64,000 bases of DNA, taken from Bacteroidales bacterium KHT7 (GTDB lineage: Bacteria; Bacteroidota; Bacteroidia; Bacteroidales; Bacteroidaceae). The notes beneath the pieces were generated by a model, which was given only the letters and a program-made list of their open reading frames with translations, did not search any database and was not told the DNA's origin. Below are positions 6,325 to 43,411 of this stretch, in pieces. The stretch spans positions 124,001 through 188,000 of the forward strand of contig FNBQ01000002.1 of assembly GCA_900102385.1 (NCBI GenBank), given 5' to 3'. Both the position numbers and the translations under genes were made by a program. How positions within the stretch are numbered: the stretch's first letter is position 1; the number at the start of each line of letters is the position of its first letter.

Positions 6325-7511
6325 TATTTCTCGATAATCGGCTCTTTTACAGGTAGTTCTATTGTATTCTTTTTCTTCTTTTTACCAAAATTGAAGCCTG
6401 CATAGAACTTGAGTGATGCGTATGTATTGTTCACGCTGAAATACTCACGTCTGAAACTATAGGTGTGAACAACGAACGACAGGCCTGTGTAGTATTTTGC
6501 ATTGTTCCAAGTTATTCCGATGCGGCTGAACATATCCAGACTGATGTATTTCATCTGCCTCTTCAGTTGGTTCATCGTTATATCGCTGATTTTTACCTCC
6601 GATTCCTTGTAACCGATGGCTGGCTGCAAAGATGCCGACAGCAGGCAGTTTCTCTTGAAAACCCAGTTGTATGCGTATCCGAAGTTGATGCTGTAGTCCG
6701 AATATTTCAGTTTGTTGAACATCATGCTTTGGTCGAGTTCTTCGACCATTTTATTTGGGAGTTTCTCGTGATTGAAGTCTATTTCGTGTTTTGAACAGGT
6801 TATGCCGAGCAAGAACGAGCCGCAACTTCGCCGTTGGTTTGTGCTCTGTGCAAATGCCGCCGGATACGAAAAATGCTTGTGATTGAAGATGTAATATGCA
6901 TTCAGACCCTTTATCGAAACGTCGAGGGCATTACATTCTTTTCCGATTTGCGAATCGTCGGAAAAACCTGTGTAGTCGTCGAGTGTCATTGGTGAATTTC
7001 CTGATTTTCTCCAATAGATGTCGCCGCCAATCATATTAGTGTAGATACTCAGTTCGAACTCGCGCTTTGCGCTTGTCGAACGGCTGAATAGTCTGGTTGC
7101 ATCTACCGAATATCCAAGGAAAATCCATTTCCATCCGAAGTAAAGACCGAGTTTGTAGTTGGCATTCGGACTGAAATCTATTTCCTGTTTGCTCGTAGAA
7201 CTGCTGATGTTGTAGAATTCGTACCAGTTGCTTGTCTCCAGCATCACGGCATAGTTGTATTGATTTGGCGAAATCCAGATAGTGTCGCCCCTTTTATCGA
7301 ATTGTCTGAGTGTTGCTCCGACGGTGCTCTCAACGCCTCTTTCAAAGAGTTTTCCCGTCATCTTTCCTTGGTCAACGACAAATTTGCCCACCTTGTTTAT
7401 TAAAGGTTTGCGCTGTGAGTTACTGTCGTTTGTTTCGATGTCGTTTGCATACAATGCCGTACACAGCGACAAAAATAGTGAAATTAGGTATGTTGCTTTT
7501 ATTTTTCCCAC
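6324..7511 (-). CDS. DUF4421-family probable outer-membrane beta-barrel protein
   Basis: This 395-aa product begins with a cleavable signal peptide (ISLFLSLCTALYA). The remainder is rich in alternating aromatic/polar strands ending in aromatic residues, such as YKLGLYFGWKWIFLGYSVDATRLF, SINFGYAYNWVF and LSFVVHTYSFRREYF, as expected for an outer-membrane barrel. The overall pattern is that of the DUF4421 family of Bacteroidetes, whose function is unknown. It ends in a basic/glutamate tail (FGKKKKKNTIELP). It is the second gene of a two-gene unit, 18 nt after a Gfo/Idh/MocA oxidoreductase, a link I cannot explain. Confidence 0.75.
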   Translation of the reverse strand: MGKIKATYLISLFLSLCTALYANDIETNDSNSQRKPLINKVGKFVVDQGKMTGKLFERGVESTVGATLRQFDKRGDTIWISPNQYNYAVMLETSNWYEFYNISSSTSKQEIDFSPNANYKLGLYFGWKWIFLGYSVDATRLFSRSTSAKREFELSIYTNMIGGDIYWRKSGNSPMTLDDYTGFSDDSQIGKECNALDVSIKGLNAYYIFNHKHFSYPAAFAQSTNQRRSCGSFLLGITCSKHEIDFNHEKLPNKMVEELDQSMMFNKLKYSDYSINFGYAYNWVFKRNCLLSASLQPAIGYKESEVKISDITMNQLKRQMKYISLDMFSRIGITWNNAKYYTGLSFVVHTYSFRREYFSVNNTYASLKFYAGFNFGKKKKKNTIELPVKEPIIEK

Positions 7512-8587: not shown

Positions 8588-8762
8588 TTATCGTCCGTGC
8601 TTTGCCTATGTTTTTACCGCTTTAAATGTGAATTTTTGTGTTTTTGTGCCATATTTCGTAGAATTCGCCTTTTTGCGTGATGCAATAAAACGCATGAGTC
8701 CGACATAAGCAATTCTGCAATAATATGCAGAAGGACAATGAATCGTTATGCACGTCAAGGCT

Positions 8763-8928
8763 GGTTCAGTATAGGCTCAAGGTAGGGGGAAGTAAGACGC
8801 AGCCAAGCCGGAAGTTTCGTTAAAGGTACGGGAAGACAAGCCGCAAGGTTCGTTCAGGGTACGTTGTAGGTACGTTCAAGATTCGGGGTAGCAACGAGGT
8901 AGCTACGGGGAAGGTTCGGGGAAGCAAG
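8763..8928 (+). repeat. degenerate tandem repeat with 11-nt period
   Basis: From 8819 to 8928 the sequence divides into ten consecutive 11-nt units without a slip, for example GTTAAAGGTAC, GTTCAGGGTAC, GTTGTAGGTAC, GTTCAAGATTC, GGGGTAGCAAC, GAGGTAGCTAC, GGGGAAGGTTC and GGGGAAGCAAG. Units from 8763 to 8818 are more diverged, with one 12-nt unit. It lies in the gene-free interval 8529-9194. A related array is at 42549-42621 on the other strand. Confidence 0.8.
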
Positions 8929-8933
8929 CCAAA

Positions 8934-8982
8934 ATAATTCACAATTCACAGTTGACAATTGACAATTATTTAAAGTTGAAAA
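8934..8982 (+). repeat. degenerate heptamer repeat
   Basis: Seven consecutive 7-nt units are visible: ATAATTC, ACAATTC, ACAGTTG, ACAATTG, ACAATTA, TTTAAAG, TTGAAAA. The last two form a 14-mer (TTTAAAGTTGAAAA) found exactly, in reverse complement, at 42491-42504. It directly follows the 11-nt array. The rest of 8983-9136 shows nothing recognisable. Confidence 0.75.
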
Positions 8983-9136
8983 AACAACGATATGGGATTT
9001 TTCGAAGCCGTGCCAGCTTATCACGGAGCATCCATAGCCACGTTGTCAAAGCAATAAAATATCATCGAATTTATCCCGAACTGGCGTAAGAAATGTATGC
9101 TTGGTTATGTGATTCTGCAAATTTTATAAATAACTA

Positions 9137-35176: not shown

Positions 35177-35629
35177 TTATATCTCCTCCAACATTTGTCC
35201 CGGATTTTCAGCCGCCTTGACGTTTGAGAAAGCCTTTACGATTATTCCGTTCTCGTCAATCAGATATGTGGTGCGCACAACGCCGAATGTCTTCTTGCCG
35301 TACATGTTTTTCTCTTTCCAAACATCGTATGCCTGAATAACGGTTTTCTCTGTGTCGGACAGAAGTGTGAACGGCAAGTTGAACTTCTCCTGAAATTTTT
35401 TGTGCGATGCCACGCTGTCTTTACTCACTCCCAATATCTCAACGCCTTTCTCTCTGAAATGCGGAAACAAGTCGCCGAAACTGCATGCCTGTTTGGTGCA
35501 TCCCGAGGTGTTGTCTTTGGGGTAGAAGTAGAGTATTACCTTTCTGCCTTTGTAGTCGCTCAGACTGTGCATTTTTCCATCCTGATCGGGCAGTGTGAAA
35601 TCAGGAGCTTGTGTGTTGATTGTCAGCAT
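35177..35629 (-). CDS. bcp: thiol peroxidase / peroxiredoxin of the Bcp type
   Basis: Bcp reduces hydrogen peroxide and alkyl hydroperoxides with thiol reductants. The 150-aa protein shows FTLPDQDGKMHSLSDYKGRKVILYFYPKDNT, then peroxidatic C44 and resolving C49 (SGCTKQACS), spaced as in E. coli Bcp. No signal peptide, so cytoplasmic. It lies 153 nt downstream of the extracytoplasmic redox cluster and may be a separate unit. Confidence 0.93.
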   Translation of the reverse strand: MLTINTQAPDFTLPDQDGKMHSLSDYKGRKVILYFYPKDNTSGCTKQACSFGDLFPHFREKGVEILGVSKDSVASHKKFQEKFNLPFTLLSDTEKTVIQAYDVWKEKNMYGKKTFGVVRTTYLIDENGIIVKAFSNVKAAENPGQMLEEI

Positions 35630-35782
35630 TGTTGATATTTGTTTTTTTATTCTGTACGTCTGTTCGTGATAGGGCAGTGCTTCGGACTTTCAGTGCGTAT
35701 GTAATATAACGTAAAATGAGTTCTTTTATTGCATTGTGCCGCACAGTGACACAGCTCGAAATTTTGATTGTAGGAGGCAGAT

Positions 35783-36334
35783 TTACTGTTTATTAACTTG
35801 TTTCTCTAAATCTTTCTTTGATACTCTATTCAGTAACTTGCCTTCCTTCCAGTTGACTTCAGGATAAGCGGCTTTCAGGTCTTCGCAGGCTTTCTTGATG
35901 CTGCTACCACCAGAGGTGGCGAAGGGAATAACGGTCTTACCCTTGAAGTCGTACGCCTCCATGAAGGTGTTGATAATTGTGGGGTAGGTGTACCACCAGA
36001 TGGGGAAGCCGACGTAGATGACATCATAGGCCTGCATATTTGTGAGTTTGTCCGTGATGGCTGGGCGAGATGACTTATCCTGCATCTCTACGCTGCTACG
36101 GCTCTGCTTGTCACGCCAATCGAGGTCTGCATCTGTGTAGGGCTGTGCTGGCTTGATTTCGTGCAGTGTTCCACCTGTTACCTCTGCCAACTGCTGGGCC
36201 ACATCCTTTGTCACACCTGAAGCCGAGAAATAGGCAACTAATACTTTGTTCATGTTTTTACTCTCCTTCTTTTGTGAGCATACACTCAGACTCATAGCCA
36301 AGAGTGCCGTCAATATCATTACTATCTTTTTCAT
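35783..36334 (-). CDS. flavodoxin-like lipoprotein
   Basis: The 183-aa product carries a lipoprotein signal ending LSVC19. Then comes a complete flavodoxin-type fold: the FMN phosphate loop [18 protein letters not shown], the flavin-side loop [21 protein letters not shown], and [19 protein letters not shown]. Export of a flavodoxin is unusual, since FMN electron carriers normally work in the cytoplasm. It is the last gene of the cluster, 3 nt after the CMD-cupin gene. An internal Met at the start of the mature domain ([11 protein letters not shown]) could give a cytoplasmic form. Confidence 0.85.
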
Positions 36335-36337
36335 ATC

Positions 36338-37345
36338 TTACTGTAGTTTGTTGTATATCTCATCCGTTACAGGTTCCAGCCACTCATGGCTTGCACCTTC
36401 TTTTACGTCTTTATGATACGTCAGATGCTGGAACCATGAGTCTTTGGCTGCACCGTGCCAGTGCTTCACCTCGGCGGGAATAGCGATGACGGTGCCTGGA
36501 GTCATTTCCACAGGCTCCTTGCCCCATTCCTGATACCAGCCGCGACCTGCTACGCAGATCAGTACCTGCACCTGTTTGTGATGGATATGCCAATTGTTGC
36601 GACAGCGTGGCTCGAAGGTGACATTATGTACATCACCGCCAACGTTGGACAAATAACTATTGCCGATGAAATACTGCGCATAGCCCGTGTTGGGTTCGCC
36701 CTTCGGCCATTTACTCTTCAGCGTGTACCCTTCTTTATCAAGCCAAGCACAGAGCTCGTCGACGAGTTCTTGCGGGTTGCCCATATTTACGGCGCCCTTC
36801 TTGTGGGCAGCCAACTGAGGTGTCACACCCTCAAGACCGCTTAGGGCTGCAACGGTCACTATCTCGCGGTCGGCATTTGTGAGTTGGTCGCCGGCGAAAA
36901 TGTCGCCAAAGAGGTGTGCTTTCAAATAGTAATCGTCTTGCGGACAGAAGGTGTAATCGAACGGACTGCCAGATAGCTGCGTCTGGTTCTTCGTGCCCAG
37001 TTCATATGCCTTGCGGGTATTGTCCCACTCGGCAGGGCGTATCCAAGGCTTACCCTCCTGCCAGTTTTTACTTCTATTTTCTAATACCTTGTTTAATACG
37101 CCCAGTGCATTCAGACTACGCGGAAAGCCCGTGTAGGCATATAGTTGCGAGAAAGCCTCTTTCACTTCATTGATGGTTACGCCGTTGTCGAGTGCTTGTC
37201 GCACGACTGGTTCCAAGCGTTCCAAGTTACCTTGTGCCATCAGACAGGCACATGCCGCCAATCCCTTTTGACGTTCCGTCAGCGTCTGTGCATTTACTGT
37301 TGTCATCATTACTAATGCAAATAATAATGTTGCGACTCTTTTCAT
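36338..37345 (-). CDS. exported carboxymuconolactone decarboxylase-cupin fusion
   Basis: The 335-aa product starts with a signal peptide (MKRVATLLFALVMMTTVNAQ). A first CMD-like segment has EVKEAFSQLYAYTGFPRSLNAL. A second has DREIVTVAALSGLEGVTPQLAAHKKGAVNMGNPQELVDEL. A C-terminal cupin has the metal-ligand histidines WHIHH and KHWHG, with GRGWYQEWG between. The AhpD-type CxxC of peroxidase-active CMD proteins is absent. I start at ATG 37345, which opens the signal peptide; the in-frame ATG 11 codons earlier would push it inward. The function is probably decarboxylation or isomerisation of a small organic acid. Confidence 0.87.
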   Translation of the reverse strand: MKRVATLLFALVMMTTVNAQTLTERQKGLAACACLMAQGNLERLEPVVRQALDNGVTINEVKEAFSQLYAYTGFPRSLNALGVLNKVLENRSKNWQEGKPWIRPAEWDNTRKAYELGTKNQTQLSGSPFDYTFCPQDDYYLKAHLFGDIFAGDQLTNADREIVTVAALSGLEGVTPQLAAHKKGAVNMGNPQELVDELCAWLDKEGYTLKSKWPKGEPNTGYAQYFIGNSYLSNVGGDVHNVTFEPRCRNNWHIHHKQVQVLICVAGRGWYQEWGKEPVEMTPGTVIAIPAEVKHWHGAAKDSWFQHLTYHKDVKEGASHEWLEPVTDEIYNKLQ

Positions 37346-37352
37346 TGTTCCC

Positions 37353-37928
37353 TTATTCCTTATTGATAACCTCTGCACCGTATGCCTTTCCCATCTTCAT
37401 GCAGTCACCGATGATGTCGCCTGTACGCAGATATTTATAGGTAGGCATCTCGAACAGTACGGGGCGCAGTTTCTCGTAGTTGGGCTTGCCTTTCTCGTCC
37501 AGTTTATCCTCATCCACGTAGTTGTTCAACACGTTGCAAATGTAGTTCTTAAAGCCGTCGATCTCGTACACGTCTATGACTTCGCATTCCATCACCATAG
37601 GCGACTGCTCGATGACAGGCATGCCAGCCTCGCCCAGATGATACTCAAACACTTGCGATTTGTTGGTATTGGCTCCGCTTACTGTTCCTGTGTAGTCGGC
37701 TTGAGCCACAAAATCCTCGCTGATGATGTTGATGGAGAAACGCTTGCTCTCGTCGATGGCTGCGATGCTATGGTGCGACGAATGCACGCTTAGCAATAGC
37801 TTTGAGTGGCTTACGATACCTACATGGGCTACCAAGAGCCAGTTTACTTTTCCTTCGCTATCCACCGTGCCAACAACTGTTGCTGGTGTGGGATAGAGTG
37901 TCATTTTCTGTCCGATATTCTGTTTCAT
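37353..37928 (-). CDS. flavin reductase-like FMN-binding protein
   Basis: The 191-aa protein has the split-barrel flavin reductase pattern: YPTPATVVGTVDSEGKVNWLLVAHVGIVSHSKLLLSV, SHHSIAAIDESKRFSINIISEDF and a conserved TGTVSGANTNKSQVF. No signal peptide, so it should be cytoplasmic, unlike most neighbours. Such proteins bind FMN and move electrons from NAD(P)H or act as flavoprotein oxidoreductases. It sits between the amidohydrolase fusion and the CMD-cupin gene with 7-10 nt gaps. Confidence 0.85.
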   Translation of the reverse strand: MKQNIGQKMTLYPTPATVVGTVDSEGKVNWLLVAHVGIVSHSKLLLSVHSSHHSIAAIDESKRFSINIISEDFVAQADYTGTVSGANTNKSQVFEYHLGEAGMPVIEQSPMVMECEVIDVYEIDGFKNYICNVLNNYVDEDKLDEKGKPNYEKLRPVLFEMPTYKYLRTGDIIGDCMKMGKAYGAEVINKE

Positions 37929-37938
37929 AATTGTCTTG

Positions 37939-39291
37939 TTATTTTGTTGTTCGTTTAAAAACCATGTTCATTGTTTCTGGTGTCAACGGCTGCAGGTCTT
38001 GCAGCTTCAGGTGCTTCACCATGTGTAGGGTGCCCTGCTTGTACTTCAGGAAATGGGCAGTCTGGATGTGGTGCTGGTAGGCCTGCTGCGAGGCGTAGAT
38101 TTCGAGGATACGAATTTGGCAGCTATCTTCCTTTGTTTGTGTTGGGAACAGGCAGATTACGCCTGGTTCTTCGGCAAGGCTCGCTTTCTGAATTTCTGCG
38201 GCTGCAGCAAGGTATTCTTTCAAGTATTGCGGATGAATCTCGATTTCAGCCAGGCGATACAACATCGTATCAGCGTGAGGTACGTCAGCGGTTGGCTTAT
38301 TGGTGGTTTGACCAAAAAGCCAACGGGCATTCTCCGAAAGAATCATCTTTTGGAATGGCGCAAGGTCGGGCTCTTTCGATAGATAGTCCTTCATGCGGGC
38401 GAGGCTCTGGGTGAGCACCTGTGTAGCAACGTAAGGATAGTCGGAACCGTAGAACAGATGGTCGGGCGTGGTAATGGTGAGCATCATGCGGATGGTCTCT
38501 GGACTGTGTGCGCCTGCGAGGTCGTAGTACAGGGCGCGAAGGTTGGCCTCCCAGTCTATCTCACCCACCATCTTGTTGGCCTGCATCACGGGTGTCAGCG
38601 ATTTCATGCGAGGCACGGCAAGCGGTAGATAGGCTCCACAATGGGGCACCACCACCTTTACATTCGGATAGCGGGCCAGCACGTTGCGACTAATCATATT
38701 CGTTACGGCACGAGTGGTCTCAGATAGGTATTCCTGCATAGCCAGCGGCGTCTGTATCATTACTTCCTTGTTCACTGGTTCAGGGCGATGCGGATGCAGA
38801 ATCACCACCGCCTTGCGCTCGTTCAATACAGAGAACAGCGTGTCGAGTTCAGGTGCGCCGAGATATTGCCCGTTCACATTGGTAGCCAACTTGATGCCGT
38901 CGGCCTTCAGCACATCGAGCGCATACTTCGCCTCCCCGATGGCTTTCTGCACATCAGGTAGCGGCAGGGCGGCACAGAACAGGAATCGCCCTGGGTGCTC
39001 GCGCTTTATGCGGGCAGCGGTCTCGTTGGTTTTGCGAACCACTTTTGCAGATGTCGGTTGTGGCGCTGCCAGTGTTAGCACCGATGTCTCAATGCCAATC
39101 TCGTCCATCCATTTCAGATGCCCCGTCACATCATACTTCGGCAAAGGAAATCCCTCGTCCATCAGTCGATTCTCTTGTTCCAAAGCTGACACAAATTCAG
39201 AGGTGATAAGATGTGAATGTACATCGATTATGCCTTGAGCATGCACCATTGCCGCATACAGCAGTGCGATTAGTGTTACAATCTGTCTCAT
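37939..39291 (-). CDS. exported amidohydrolase/ABM-domain fusion
   Basis: The 450-aa product has a signal peptide (IVTLIALLYAAMVHAQ). An amidohydrolase-2 (ACMSD-like) TIM barrel follows: IIDVHSHL with metal ligands H25/H27, VVILHPHRPEP, VVVPHCGAYLPLAVPR and FYGSDYPY. After about residue 345 an antibiotic-biosynthesis-monooxygenase (ABM) domain follows: YRLAEIEIHPQYLKEYLAAAAEIQKAS and HIQTAHFLKYKQGTL. ABM domains include quinol monooxygenases, and the barrel family includes aromatic decarboxylases. The joint architecture on an exported protein suggests two steps on one aromatic or quinone-like substrate; this is inference. Confidence 0.85.
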   Translation of the reverse strand: MRQIVTLIALLYAAMVHAQGIIDVHSHLITSEFVSALEQENRLMDEGFPLPKYDVTGHLKWMDEIGIETSVLTLAAPQPTSAKVVRKTNETAARIKREHPGRFLFCAALPLPDVQKAIGEAKYALDVLKADGIKLATNVNGQYLGAPELDTLFSVLNERKAVVILHPHRPEPVNKEVMIQTPLAMQEYLSETTRAVTNMISRNVLARYPNVKVVVPHCGAYLPLAVPRMKSLTPVMQANKMVGEIDWEANLRALYYDLAGAHSPETIRMMLTITTPDHLFYGSDYPYVATQVLTQSLARMKDYLSKEPDLAPFQKMILSENARWLFGQTTNKPTADVPHADTMLYRLAEIEIHPQYLKEYLAAAAEIQKASLAEEPGVICLFPTQTKEDSCQIRILEIYASQQAYQHHIQTAHFLKYKQGTLHMVKHLKLQDLQPLTPETMNMVFKRTTK

Positions 39292-39305
39292 ACCTTTTTT
39301 GTTTA

Positions 39306-39878
39306 TTATTCGATTTCAATCTTCTTAATCACTTTGGCAGGGACACCACCGACAATCGTGTTTGCCTCGACATCCTTTGTCACGACGGCACCGGCTGCTA
39401 CCACAGCACCATCGCCGATGGTAACACCTGCAAGTACTGTAGCGTTTGCGCCAATCCATACGTTCTTGCCGATGTGGATGGGCGCATGTGTCATTCCCGC
39501 TCGCATGCTTGGTTCAAGCATGTGGTTGAGCGTGGCCAGCACGACATTATGGCCTATGAGTGCGCCTTCATCGATGATGATGCCGCCTTGATCCTGGAAC
39601 TTGCAGCCCATGTTGATAAAGACGCGTTCGCCAACCACGGTGTTCTTTCCGCAGTCGGTGTGGAACGGTGGAAACATCCCAACACTCTTCGGCACCTCAC
39701 GTCCCCAAAGTTTCTCCAACAGGTCATGTAATTCCTCGGGCGTGTGATACTTGCTGTTAATGTCTGCCGTAATCTGCAAAGCCTCTTGGGAAAGTTTATG
39801 AAACATCATGTGAACCCCAGACCCGCCTTCAACGGGCTTGTCAGAGGCCATGTAATCCCTGAACTCTTGTATCGTCAT
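39306..39878 (-). CDS. maltose/galactoside O-acetyltransferase-type hexapeptide enzyme
   Basis: The 190-aa protein has the left-handed beta-helix repeats ([37 protein letters not shown]) and the catalytic histidine region [31 protein letters not shown]. The N-terminal [15 protein letters not shown] matches the Maa/LacA/NodL family. It acetylates a sugar or similar hydroxyl acceptor with acetyl-CoA, so it is cytoplasmic. It starts 1 nt after the alpha/beta hydrolase gene stop. Confidence 0.9.
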
Positions 39879-39879
39879 T

Positions 39880-40977
39880 TTATTTCAGATTTGTCTTGAA
39901 GAATTCCTCCATCTTGTCGTATGGAATCTTCCCGTTCTTGTCGTCGTAAAGGTCGGTGTGGACGGCATCGGGGATAATCATCAGTTCCTTATTGCCGACA
40001 ACTGCGTTCTGACCCTCAACATGCTTGCCAGTCATCTTTTCGAAAGCGTACTCAGAGAAATAGCGGCTGTGGGCTTTCTCGCCGTGAATGAGCAGGACGG
40101 GCGACTCAATCTCGTGTGCCCAAGCCAATAGGGGCTGGTTGAGGAAAGACTGACAGCCGATGACGTTCCAGCCATCAGTAGAGTTGCCGCTGCGCTCGTG
40201 GTAGCCGCGTGGGGTCTTGTAGTAGTCGTAGTAGTCCTTCACGAACTGCGGTGCATCGTCGGGCAGCGGGTCAATGACACCGCCAGCACGCTTGTAGGTA
40301 CCGTTTTTGAAGTCCTCAGTACGCTGCTGGGCGATGGCCTTGCGCTTCTCCATGCGCTGTGCCTGGGTGTCCTCGCTCTTGAAGTAGCCCTCCACGTTCA
40401 CCTTGCTCATATCGTACATCGTCGAGGCAACGGTGGCCTTGATGCGGGGGTCGATGGCGGCAGCATTCACTGCCATTCCGCCAAAACCGCAGATGCCGAT
40501 GATGCCAATTCTTTCAGCATCCACATTGTCCTGATTGCTCAGGAAATCGACGGCAGCGAGGAAGTCCTCGGTGTTGATGTCGGGCGAGGCCATACGGCGA
40601 GGCTCGCCACCGCTCTCACCAGTAAACGAGGGGTCGAAGGCGATGGTCAAGAAACCACGCTCAGCCATGTGTTGAGCATAGAGACCGCTTGTCTGCTCCT
40701 TCACTGCACCGAACGGTCCGCTCACTGCGATAGCTGCAAGTTTGCCCTCAGCACCTTTTGGCGTGTACATATCGGCAGCAAGTTCAATGCCGTAGCGGTT
40801 CTTGAACGTGACTTTCTTGTGGTCCACCTTGTCACTCTTGGGAAACGTTTTGTCCCACTCCAGAGTCAACTGCAATGTCGTATTCATACCTTTTTCATTT
40901 TGATTGTTTTCACTTTTCTGATTGCACCCCGTGAGCGTAAAGCCCATCAGTACTGCGGCTAATAATGCTTTCTTCAT
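39880..40977 (-). CDS. alpha/beta hydrolase lipoprotein with cysteine nucleophile
   Basis: The 365-aa product has a lipoprotein signal (GFTLTGC18). Its hydrolase fold carries the nucleophile elbow [12 protein letters not shown], where C163 replaces the usual serine, as in dienelactone hydrolases. The catalytic histidine is likely in [12 protein letters not shown] and the acid near [11 protein letters not shown]. It resembles the YcjY/dienelactone group. The substrate is unknown, probably an ester, lactone or thioester in the periplasm. It is the second gene of the cluster, 64 nt after the flavodoxin-cyclophilin gene. Confidence 0.87.
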
Positions 40978-41041
40978 AAGATAATCTTGTATTTTGTTTG
41001 AATTCGTTCATGTTCGGAATGTAAGCGAACTTCCATTTCTC

Positions 41042-42115
41042 TCACTTAATCACAACCTTGTTACCATTTCTAATGAATATTCCTTTGCTAGGGCTATTTG
41101 CACGCTGACCATTCAGCGAATAGTGTACATCGTTTTCTGCATTGGAGCGAACGTTGCTGATACCCGTTGTGTTGATGAGCGATAGCGTTACGGTGATATT
41201 ACCTTGTCCGGCTTTCAGAATCTGCTTCAGCTCGGCTTGCGTCTTGCCTTCAATTTTGCCAATACTGGTAAACGTCCATGTATTTGTGTCGTAATAGAGG
41301 CAGAGATTCGAGCCTTGGTATAGGATGATGTCGCCCGGCTCAGTGGTGATGTTCTCATTGTTCTCAGGGAATGACTGTTCCAATGGGCCGACCTTCTCGA
41401 AGTTGCCGTAGTCGTGGGCCTCGTAGGTAATGGGCGCCTGCTTTAAGGCCTCCATTAGTGCCTGTGCCGAAGTGTTGTTGGCGAGCGTGGCAGTCAGTGT
41501 CTGTTTACCGTCGATGGTGATATATATCTTGTTCATAGTAGTTTGTTTTTCTGCGAAATTTAGTGTTGGTAGCCAGTTCTGAATTAGCGAGGCACGGTTA
41601 CTATGATTGCTGGCGTTAATCCACAATGCATCGCCCATCCAAGTGATGTTCTTCACCAAGCGTTCTGCATCGGCCACCACACCGCTAATGCCGCTGCTGT
41701 GGCTCGATACAATCAGCGCGACATTCTTACCTGTCATCTGCGTACCGTAATTAAAGAGGAACGTCTGCATGATGGCTGCCATCTGGCTCCACCACAAGGG
41801 CGTGACGATGACGATGTTCTCATACTGCGAGAGGTCGGTGATGCTTACGGGGGCGATGGCGGGATAACTCGCCGCATCATTGGGCGCAGCCTTAATGGCG
41901 TTCAGCAGCGCCGTGCCAATAGCATAGTTGTTTGCCTCGTACTTCTGCGTTTTGTCGGCAGGTTCAATACGCATCACATCAGCCTGAATCAGGCTCGTTA
42001 GGGAGGTCACTATCTCGTGACAATTATTTGTATAACTGTAGTACACCACCAGAGTCTTGGCGCTTATGCTCACAGCAAGGAGCATCATGCAAAATACTGA
42101 AAATAATCGTCTCAT
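41042..42115 (-). CDS. exported flavodoxin/cyclophilin-like fusion with C-terminal secretion-type tail
   Basis: The 357-aa product has a signal peptide (FSVFCMMLLAVSISA). A flavodoxin domain follows (TLVVYYSYTNNCHEIVTSL and IVIVTPLWWSQMAAIMQTFLF), then a cyclophilin-like domain from about MNKIYITIDGKQTLTATLAN to LYQGSNLCLYYDTNTWTF. The last residues (YSLNGQRAN...KGIFIRNGNKVVIK) match the short C-terminal tails found on exported Prevotella proteins. The FMN loop SYTNNC departs from SxTGNT. It is the first gene of the cluster. I start at ATG 42115, since a -7 box lies between it and an earlier in-frame ATG. Confidence 0.85.
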   Translation of the reverse strand: MRRLFSVFCMMLLAVSISAKTLVVYYSYTNNCHEIVTSLTSLIQADVMRIEPADKTQKYEANNYAIGTALLNAIKAAPNDAASYPAIAPVSITDLSQYENIVIVTPLWWSQMAAIMQTFLFNYGTQMTGKNVALIVSSHSSGISGVVADAERLVKNITWMGDALWINASNHSNRASLIQNWLPTLNFAEKQTTMNKIYITIDGKQTLTATLANNTSAQALMEALKQAPITYEAHDYGNFEKVGPLEQSFPENNENITTEPGDIILYQGSNLCLYYDTNTWTFTSIGKIEGKTQAELKQILKAGQGNITVTLSLINTTGISNVRSNAENDVHYSLNGQRANSPSKGIFIRNGNKVVIK

Positions 42116-42141
42116 GTCCTTTTCTATTATTAAATCCACTG

Positions 42142-42149
42142 CAAAGGTA
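42142..42149 (-). promoter_or_regulatory. -7 box for the exported redox cluster
   Basis: TACCTTTG on the reverse strand, 26 nt before the first gene's ATG at 42115. No -33 TTTG at normal spacing, which may mean an activator is needed. No regulator gene is adjacent. Confidence 0.55.
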
Positions 42150-42320
42150 CGCGCTATTTTCAACACATTGATTACCCAAATCTTGGATAGAATTACCAAT
42201 ATTACGGAAGATTCTATTTTCCGATGCAGAAATCGTCCATTACCCATTGAAAATTGCAATTGACGAGATTTCCCAACAGTAAATCTTCTGCTTACCCATC
42301 ACCTAATCTGGCTAAACCTT

Positions 42321-42397
42321 GCATATATCTTACATATAGCTAACATATAGTTTACATATAGCTTGTATATAGCTTACATATACCCTACATATACCTT
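42321..42397 (-). repeat. degenerate tandem repeat, seven 11-nt units
   Basis: On the plus strand the units are GCATATATCTT, ACATATAGCTA, ACATATAGTTT, ACATATAGCTT, GTATATAGCTT, ACATATACCCT and ACATATACCTT, without slips. The sequence differs from the array at 42549-42621 but the period is the same. Confidence 0.85.
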
Positions 42398-42454
42398 GCC
42401 ACTATTTTGTGTTTACCAAACGAACAATTCCATTAGAAATTGTCCGTTACAAGT

Positions 42455-42524
42455 TCTAAGTTATGAATTTTGAATTATGAATTCCCCAAATTTTCAACTT
42501 TAAATTTTCAAGTTTCAAGTTCAA
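42455..42524 (-). repeat. degenerate heptamer repeat, ten units
   Basis: Plus-strand units: TCTAAGT, TATGAAT, TTTGAAT, TATGAAT, TCCCCAA, ATTTTCA, ACTTTAA, ATTTTCA, AGTTTCA, AGTTCAA. It holds the 14-mer at 42491-42504 shared with 8969-8982. Confidence 0.75.
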
Positions 42525-42548
42525 ATATTGTTAACACCATTGCATCAA

Positions 42549-42621
42549 TATACGCTTCGCCGAACCTATCCCCTTGCTATCCTCTTGCTACCATCTTGCT
42601 ACCCCGAACCTTCAGGTTACC
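42549..42621 (-). repeat. degenerate tandem repeat with 11-nt period, related to 8763-8928
   Basis: Plus-strand units TATACGCTTCG, CCGAACCTATC, CCCTTGCTATC, CTCTTGCTACC, ATCTTGCTACC, then a 7-nt piece and TTCAGGTTACC. Its reverse complement shares TTCGGGGTAGCAA followed by GGTAGC with 8882-8903. The surrounding interval 42150-42843 contains no gene that I can support. Confidence 0.8.
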
Positions 42622-42843
42622 TTAAAAGTCGGTTTTTGCTTCTTTTCTGCATAATGATACAGAATGCCATTGCATATTATTACAGGGTACGATTTATCCC
42701 AGACTTACGTAATCTGTGCAAATATAGCATTTTCTGTTGACCGTAACAAGGCTTAGGCATCATGAAAAATGGCGTATGGGGCTGCCCTACGGAAAAATAG
42801 GTGTGAATCTTACAAAATAATATCGCTGTTGTTAAAATTTTAT

Positions 42844-42851
42844 TATCTTTG
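42844..42851 (+). promoter_or_regulatory. -7 box for apt
   Basis: TATCTTTG, 29 nt upstream of the apt ATG. No -33 TTTG at normal spacing. Confidence 0.5.
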
Positions 42852-42880
42852 CACGCTGGTTCAAAAAATAACAAATAGAA

Positions 42881-43411
42881 ATGAATAATCAATATCTTCT
42901 CGAACACTTGCGTTCGATAAAGGATTTCCCTCAGAAGGGCATCAACTTCCGCGACGTTACAACGCTTTTTAAAGATGCCAAGGCTCTTGAGATAATGGAC
43001 GAGGAGTTGTATCAACTTTACAAGGATAAGGGTATCACCAAGGTCGTTGGTATTGAGTCGCGCGGATTCGTAATGGGTTCGTGCCTTGCGCGCAGACTGA
43101 ATGCCGGACTGGTTATGTGCCGCAAGCCGGGAAAACTGCCAGCAAAGACCATTCAGGAGACATATACAAAGGAATACGGTACCGATACAATCGAGATTCA
43201 TGCCGATGCCATAAATGAGGACGATGTGGTGCTTATCCACGACGACCTTCTGGCAACAGGCGGAACGATAAAGGCTGCATGGAATTTGGTTAAGAAGTTC
43301 AACCCAAAGAAGTGCTACATGAACTTCATCATCGAGATTCGCGATGAGGGTCTGAAGGGCCGTGAGTTTATTGGTGACGATATCGAAGTAACATCATTGT
43401 TGAGTTTGTAA
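42881..43411 (+). CDS. apt: adenine phosphoribosyltransferase
   Basis: Apt salvages adenine to AMP with PRPP. The 176-aa protein has the family start LRSIKDFPQKGINFRDVTTLFKD, the substrate loop GIESRGFVMGSCLA, RKPGKLPAKT and the PRPP motif VVLIHDDLLATGGT. The length is typical. It is a single-gene unit, with a promoter directly upstream and a terminator after it. Confidence 0.96.
   Translation: MNNQYLLEHLRSIKDFPQKGINFRDVTTLFKDAKALEIMDEELYQLYKDKGITKVVGIESRGFVMGSCLARRLNAGLVMCRKPGKLPAKTIQETYTKEYGTDTIEIHADAINEDDVVLIHDDLLATGGTIKAAWNLVKKFNPKKCYMNFIIEIRDEGLKGREFIGDDIEVTSLLSL

Follow-up and report, generated by a model that had tools for sequence, protein, structure and literature searches.

Mobile insertion cassettes, as represented by MIC231 of Bacillus cereus (cited in PMC6542083) and the qnrS2 MICE of Aeromonas pAC3 (PMC5444012), consist of passenger genes without a transposase enclosed by IS-type terminal inverted repeats (TIRs), and the known examples are, as far as these accounts go, mobilised in trans by related ISs. 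The locus described here has the same arrangement but, set against what those accounts contain, differs in its IS982-type ends, its rumen Bacteroidaceae host, its metabolic cargo of seven genes spanning approximately 7 kb, and its internal minisatellites of 7 and 11 nt. A literature search combining mobile insertion cassettes with Bacteroides returned nothing relevant, and no IS982 elements carrying 7 kb of passenger DNA were found in the literature searched.

The repeats within the element resemble a different class of described elements. BrickBuilt and MITE464/PgRS of Porphyromonas gingivalis (PMC4596501) are likewise intergenic MITEs with an internal minisatellite, are limited to a genus or species, and occur in many degenerate copies, some of them with target-site duplications (TSDs); however, their units are 23 or 41 nt long, their TIR is GAGACC/TGTTGCA (IS5 type), and they have no gene cargo (PMC4596501), whereas in the present repeats 7-nt and 11-nt units of several types are chained. 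Identity with BrickBuilt was ruled out because the units are 7 and 11 nt rather than 23 nt and the TIR is not of the GAGACC type. The TIR of MITE239/ISPg3 of P. gingivalis (ACGTGAGTTCGATATAA/ACGTCAGTTCGA; PMC4596501, Table 2) is nearly the same as the present motif, ACGYSAGTTCGGGATAA; ISPg3 is filed under IS5 in PMC4596501, whereas the transposase associated with the motif described here is scored as IS982. MITECca01 of Cardinium (PMC9769881), from another bacterium of the Bacteroidota, is a MITE of about 240 bp derived from an IS982 element, but the available part of its description mentions neither a minisatellite nor cargo. The heptamer direct repeats of Cyanobacteria, Beggiatoaceae, and Bacteroidetes (TAACTGA; PMC4679880) are also short intergenic tandem heptamers with a sporadic distribution, but they have another unit sequence, no transposon ends, and no partner arrays of 11 nt. 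The architecture of the present element, and the behaviour that we infer for it, match a mobile insertion cassette, and its minisatellite-in-MITE design matches BrickBuilt.

In the 64-kb window (the whole stretch of 64,000 nt that was analysed), positions 35655–42711 (7,057 bp, minus strand) probably constitute a non-autonomous mobile insertion cassette with IS982-type MITE ends, internal minisatellites, and a seven-gene operon as cargo. The locus was compared in 80 named genomes, found through the neighbouring apt gene, and the same neighbourhood was kept only in L084 (L-numbers denote individual examined loci), from the MAG RGIG8161. This locus belongs to a congener, G001, a Bacteroidaceae MAG from water-buffalo rumen. 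Contig C17 of the window's own genome (G000; 3.79 Mb, 61 contigs) and contig C53 of G001 are collinear over about 78 kb, with one large break within the window, where positions 35656–42794 (7,139 bp) stand against 382 bp in G001. The flanking genes encode the thioredoxin-dependent peroxiredoxin prxQ/bcp (35177–35629, minus strand) and, by Pfam, the adenine phosphoribosyltransferase apt (42881–43411, plus strand). In G001, a prxQ/ahpC-like gene of the AhpC-TSA family, which is the 92% identical orthologue of the former, directly adjoins apt, whose protein is 100% identical, and the seven-gene block between them is missing; at E ≤1e−20, cargo gene 1 matches nothing in the whole of G001. The initial annotation had suggested that the repeat beside the block might mark an integration or rearrangement boundary, to be checked by looking for the 35.8–42.1 kb block in relatives, and that unchanged repeats between unchanged flanking genes would speak against this. 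The comparison bore this suggestion out: G001 is without exactly that block, and the repeats at the site differ too, the prxQ–apt spacer of G001 carrying an array of this repeat type that is distinct from those here, so that more than one event must have occurred at the site. The expectation that the breakpoints would fall within the periodic arrays did not hold. They coincide instead with a pair of inverted transposon-end motifs: the one at 35655 has no array beside it, and the one at 42711 is some 100 nt beyond the outer limit of array 1. The periodic arrays lie within the inserted element.

Both ends of the insert carry, in inverted orientation, an 18-nt motif, TACGYSAGTTCGGGATAA. The left TIR (TACGTCTGTTCGTGATAG, 35655–35672, plus strand) lies exactly at the left breakpoint and the right TIR (TACGTAAGTCTGGGATAA in the minus reading, 42694–42711) at the right breakpoint, each with three mismatches to the motif. 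They are bordered by a TSD (no strand assigned), TTCTG on the left (35650–35654) and ATCTG on the right (42712–42716), which are identical at four of five positions, and a single TTCTG is found in the empty site of G001. The edges read TTATTCTG|TACGTCTGTTCGTGATAGGG on the left and TTTATCCCAGACTTACGTA|ATCTGTGCAAATATAGC on the right, and the empty site reads GTATTCTG|TGCAAATATAGC. At up to three mismatches, the motif occurs at only three sites in the window, namely 35655 (plus), 42694 (minus), and 9071 (minus), the last being the right end of another copy of the repeat (copy 1), whereas a reversed control motif has no match. The motif was first noticed in copy 1 and in the copy beside the block (copy 2) and was then refined on other genomic copies, the right edge contributing to the consensus and the left edge not. 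By a hand calculation from base-match probabilities, about 0.14 chance matches per window are expected, and two correctly oriented matches at independently located breakpoints are therefore not a coincidence. Inward from 42711, the right end has the head, 11-mer array, and joint of a complete 245-bp MITE (L081), and beyond the joint come heptamers, a palindrome, and a second 11-mer array, leading up to the genes. What the initial annotation recorded as a repeat is thus an internal portion of this end, and this accounts for its position next to the gene cluster. By eye, the left end resembles the MITE family only in its 18-nt TIR. Because both TIRs are degenerate and the duplication is imperfect, the event was not recent.

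Genome-wide, the TIR motif had 66 matches in G000 against 2 for the control motif, and 42 against 3 in G001; it was present in 15 of the 61 genomes of an order-level sample. Inverted pairs 180–481 bp apart form short MITEs, four of which have exact 5-bp duplications (CAAGA at L081, TTCTT at L056, GTTCT at L262, and TAAAA at L260), and a locus with the same TIRs in another genus (L302) has the exact 5-bp duplication CAATT. These short copies have the properties of an IS982-group MITE, in that they are non-coding, share the TIRs of an autonomous IS, have a fixed TSD, and are present in many copies. No clean empty sites in G001 were obtained for the short MITEs at L056, L081, L262, and L264; the first two sites are occupied or altered, and the other two match on one flank only. 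With regard to the cognate IS, about ten exact motifs lie 150–470 nt from contig ends of G000 and lead into transposase fragments, of which a C-terminal fragment scores as IS982 (E = 3.7e−32) and DDE_Tnp_1_3. IS982 transposase fragments thus lie behind exact TIRs at contig ends, with no full copy assembled in the stretches examined, and a complete element of 1,039 bp with the same TIR is present in a relative, G050, where the IS982-family transposase scores 233 bits against a curated cut-off of 130. The locus therefore combines what characterises a mobile insertion cassette, namely passenger genes without a transposase between inverted IS-type ends, a TSD (4/5) together with an empty site, and fragments of a cognate IS. 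A second MITE subfamily of about 357 bp has the same TIRs (L262, L264, and G001 C24:1401–1758) and is 82–91% alike between species. The PhzF-like genes beside TIRs at L234 and L243 are not transposases, and a second candidate for TIR-bounded cargo (G000 C21:54728–63071) was rejected because it has no matching duplication.

It would thus seem that a miniature transposon captured an entire operon and delivered it to a position separating a peroxide-defence gene from its promoter. The block would have transposed as one unit into the 5′ leader of prxQ, most likely with a resident IS982-type transposase acting in trans, and 5 bp of target would have been duplicated on insertion. The direction of change appears to be a gain in the window's species, a polarity that is read from empty-site logic in one congener and not from an outgroup. 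The consensus of the Bacteroidota −7 box is TAnnTTTG. The sequence TATATTTG, which fits this consensus, is found in G001 roughly 30 nt upstream of prxQ, and a 20-nt stretch identical to G001 (CTGTGCAAATATAGCATTTT) lies at 42714–42733 in the window, on the far side of the insert and pointing into it; the putative displaced −7 box itself occupies 42719–42726 (minus strand), its G001 counterpart being just upstream of prxQ. In the window, prxQ retains only its leader. As judged from sequence, the insertion would therefore have detached prxQ from its promoter, which may now be directed into the element and have the cassette on its downstream side. A candidate promoter of the operon's own, TACCTTTG, was also read from the sequence, at 42142–42149 (minus strand).

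Other histories of the block are less probable. It may have been enclosed by two MITEs, or by one MITE and a solo TIR, and been moved or brought in via their outer ends or by recombination between MITEs, in which case the element formed around its cargo and did not begin as a MITE that took cargo in. The asymmetry of the ends, with only the TIR in common with the MITE family on the left and a full MITE head on the right, agrees with such a composite-transposon-like origin, the TIME-COMP elements of Pseudomonas arise in this way (PMC4133298), and dozens of MITE copies are available as substrates. Nevertheless, no inner TIRs were found near either end, two whole MITEs are not visible, and the 5-bp duplication favours a single transposition event by the outer ends; we therefore consider this origin unlikely. 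We give somewhat less weight still to the possibility that the block is ancestral and that G001 lost it when a deletion ran precisely from one 5-bp repeat to the other. Such an excision must leave one TTCTG and restore the usual spacing between the prxQ promoter and gene, and TIRs with a duplication at both edges mark a gain, which makes loss improbable even though only two species in the genus were compared and relatives of the cluster exist in other genera of the family.

The periodic repeats could themselves have been the substrate of rearrangement, with homologous or slipped recombination between dispersed arrays swapping blocks and the TIR matches being incidental. At five composite-repeat sites (L051, L055, L058, L066, and L082) one flank differs between the species, and G001 has 5.5 kb of other genes at the L081 site; however, the left breakpoint at the present locus has no array and both breakpoints fall on TIRs, and we regard this explanation as very improbable here. 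Insertion by a prophage, an ICE, or an integrase was rejected because Pfam and NCBIfam searches revealed no such genes in the block, and an autonomous IS or transposon because there is no transposase between the ends. Transposition of a mobile insertion cassette remains the reading that we prefer. Between gut Bacteroidales, operons that carry no integrase or transposase often differ without any visible cause, and in this one comparison a plausible vehicle comes to light: its ends are exact, its target is duplicated, there is a candidate for the transposase, and a promoter may have been captured; the element ends can also serve as a search motif for further cargo elements. It is conceivable, but doubtful, that in this rumen genus minisatellite-loaded IS982-type MITEs are a general operon-capturing system, which would acquire complete metabolic clusters and place them downstream of promoters that were already there; this would account for many of the breaks in gene content at composite-repeat sites.

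The seven-gene cluster that the initial annotation placed beside the repeat was confirmed by Pfam and NCBIfam searches, and it is a largely exported redox and hydrolase operon. All seven genes are on the minus strand, and except where stated were assigned by Pfam: an exported flavodoxin_4 and cyclophilin-like protein of 357 aa (gene 1, 41042–42115), an S15-like alpha/beta hydrolase with a lipoprotein-type signal read from its N-terminus (gene 2, 39880–40977), a hexapeptide-repeat acetyltransferase (gene 3, 39306–39878; Pfam and NCBIfam), an exported amidohydrolase_2 with an ABM domain (gene 4, 37939–39291), a flavin reductase-like protein (gene 5, 37353–37928), a carboxymuconolactone decarboxylase-like (CMD) protein with a cupin domain (gene 6, 36338–37378), and a lipoprotein-type flavodoxin (gene 7, 35783–36334; Pfam and NCBIfam). 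Judging by sequence, the N-termini of five of the seven proteins are of the signal or lipoprotein type (for gene 6, from an internal Met), and Pfam and NCBIfam searches detected no transposase among the seven genes. The GC content of the block is 50.4% against 46% in the flanks, and GC3 is unremarkable, so that base composition is not decisive as evidence of a foreign origin. In other genera of the family, the block genes occur in partial clusters, with proteins about 45 to 81% identical, and the cluster is therefore sporadic. Four such loci (L281, L282, L284, and L286) have rearranged flavodoxin, hydrolase, amidohydrolase, and CMD-cupin clusters with 48–81% identity. No convincing TIRs were found at the edges of the partial clusters in other genera, and a conserved cluster flanked by the same TIRs there was accordingly rejected. 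No second copy of the 7-kb element was found.

The organisation of copy 2 was largely as first described. On the minus strand, an 11-nt array precedes a heptamer array, as in copy 1, and direct reading placed array 1 (GGTTCGGGGTAGCAAGATGGTAGCAAGAGGATAGCAAGGGGATAG, GGTAGCAAGRG type) at about 42610–42562 and the heptamer arrays (AATTCAT and AAGTTGA types) at 42521–42461. A second and different 11-nt array (ACATATAGCTT or CTATATGTAAG type, minus strand) is present at 42318–42397 (TRF score 97, 7.3 copies); orthologous arrays of this type elsewhere differ by whole 11-nt units. The sequence TTCGGGGTAGCAA, GGTAGC, and the 14-mer TTTAAAGTTGAAAA are indeed common to copy 1 (about 8890–8980, plus strand) and copy 2 (minus strand). 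The gene-free stretch, given as 760 nt, was confirmed at 765 nt (42116–42880), and the array limits originally given were right to within about ten to fifteen bases. The same repeat units were recovered by TRF. Against a null model of 1,000 dinucleotide shuffles, the best lag-11 stretch scored 51/62 (shuffle maximum, 35) and lag 7 scored 33/50 (shuffle maximum, 29), while lags 6, 9, 10, and 12 were at the background level; every sub-array, including both of copy 1, exceeded all 1,000 of its own shuffles, which rules out random low complexity. Rfam models matched nothing in 42100–42900 at E ≤1, and a structured RNA or riboswitch in that interval was dropped for this reason. Between and around the arrays lie further modules, read on the minus strand: the MITE head (TAATAATATGCA ... 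ATCATTATGCAGAAAAG, 42622–42693), which is common to copy 1, L081, L065, L072, L082, and G001 loci; the joining module GCGTATATTGATGCAAT (42539–42555) and the closing module CCAGATTAGGTGATGGG (42295–42311), each with 21 matches in the examined loci, those of the former coming from both species; and, without strand, the palindromic module GGACAATTTCTAATGGAATTGTTCG (42421–42446), which recurs at many sites in both species.

With the repeat as a query, 138 BLAST pieces were found at about 39 sites in G000, the genome-wide counts resting on searches together with examined stretches. The preferred module order is the head TAATAATATGCAG...ATTATGCAGAAAA, an 11-mer array of the GGTAGCAAGGG type, the joint GCGTATATTGATGCAAT, heptamer arrays, the palindrome GGACAATTTCGTCAGAAATTGTTCG, the joint GGTAAATACAAAATAGTG, an 11-mer array of the CTATATGTAAG type, and the closing module CCAGATTAGGTGATGGG. 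The family is also present in G001, and 39 relatives outside the genus gave no match at E ≤1e−6, which rules out a family-wide or order-wide repeat; from one congener compared, the composite intergenic repeats appear to be a genus-specific family. They are not insertion scars in general, as many lie at collinear orthologous sites in both species: at least six sites are collinear with G001 on both sides (e.g., L047, L049, L054, L070, L065, and copy 1), and at the five sites named above collinearity breaks off at the repeat on one flank, counts that do not represent an unbiased rate, as the G001 regions were chosen for containing repeats. Copy 1 is a complete composite MITE (8689–9088, plus strand) with a degenerate left TIR and an exact right TIR at 9071–9088. 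G001 has it at the corresponding site (L192, about 6777–7181) with about 90% conservation, and it is therefore an old insertion.

Because orthologous arrays (L049/L200 and L070/L197) have gained or lost whole 11-nt units while the rest is nearly identical between the species, the arrays behave as VNTRs. The 7- and 11-nt arrays would be passive in this respect, changing in length by slippage, and we claim no separate function for them; they could serve as strain markers. Runs of N (assembly gaps) fall within arrays. At the site of the 245-bp MITE in G000 (L081, 1920–2264), the other genes in G001 span about 5.5 kb (C38:32972–38480, L295), starting with a heptamer array and including ORFs of 315 and 1,027 aa. 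Beside another composite repeat with a palindrome module (L195, 1–6500; G000:C17:104001–110500), collinearity with G001 is scrambled. A hairpin module, GACGCTGAAAGCGTC ... GGTCG.CGACC, is another dispersed intergenic module that joins composite repeats (L046 and L049 in G000 and L200 in G001), and its copies in the two species are nearly identical at one site.
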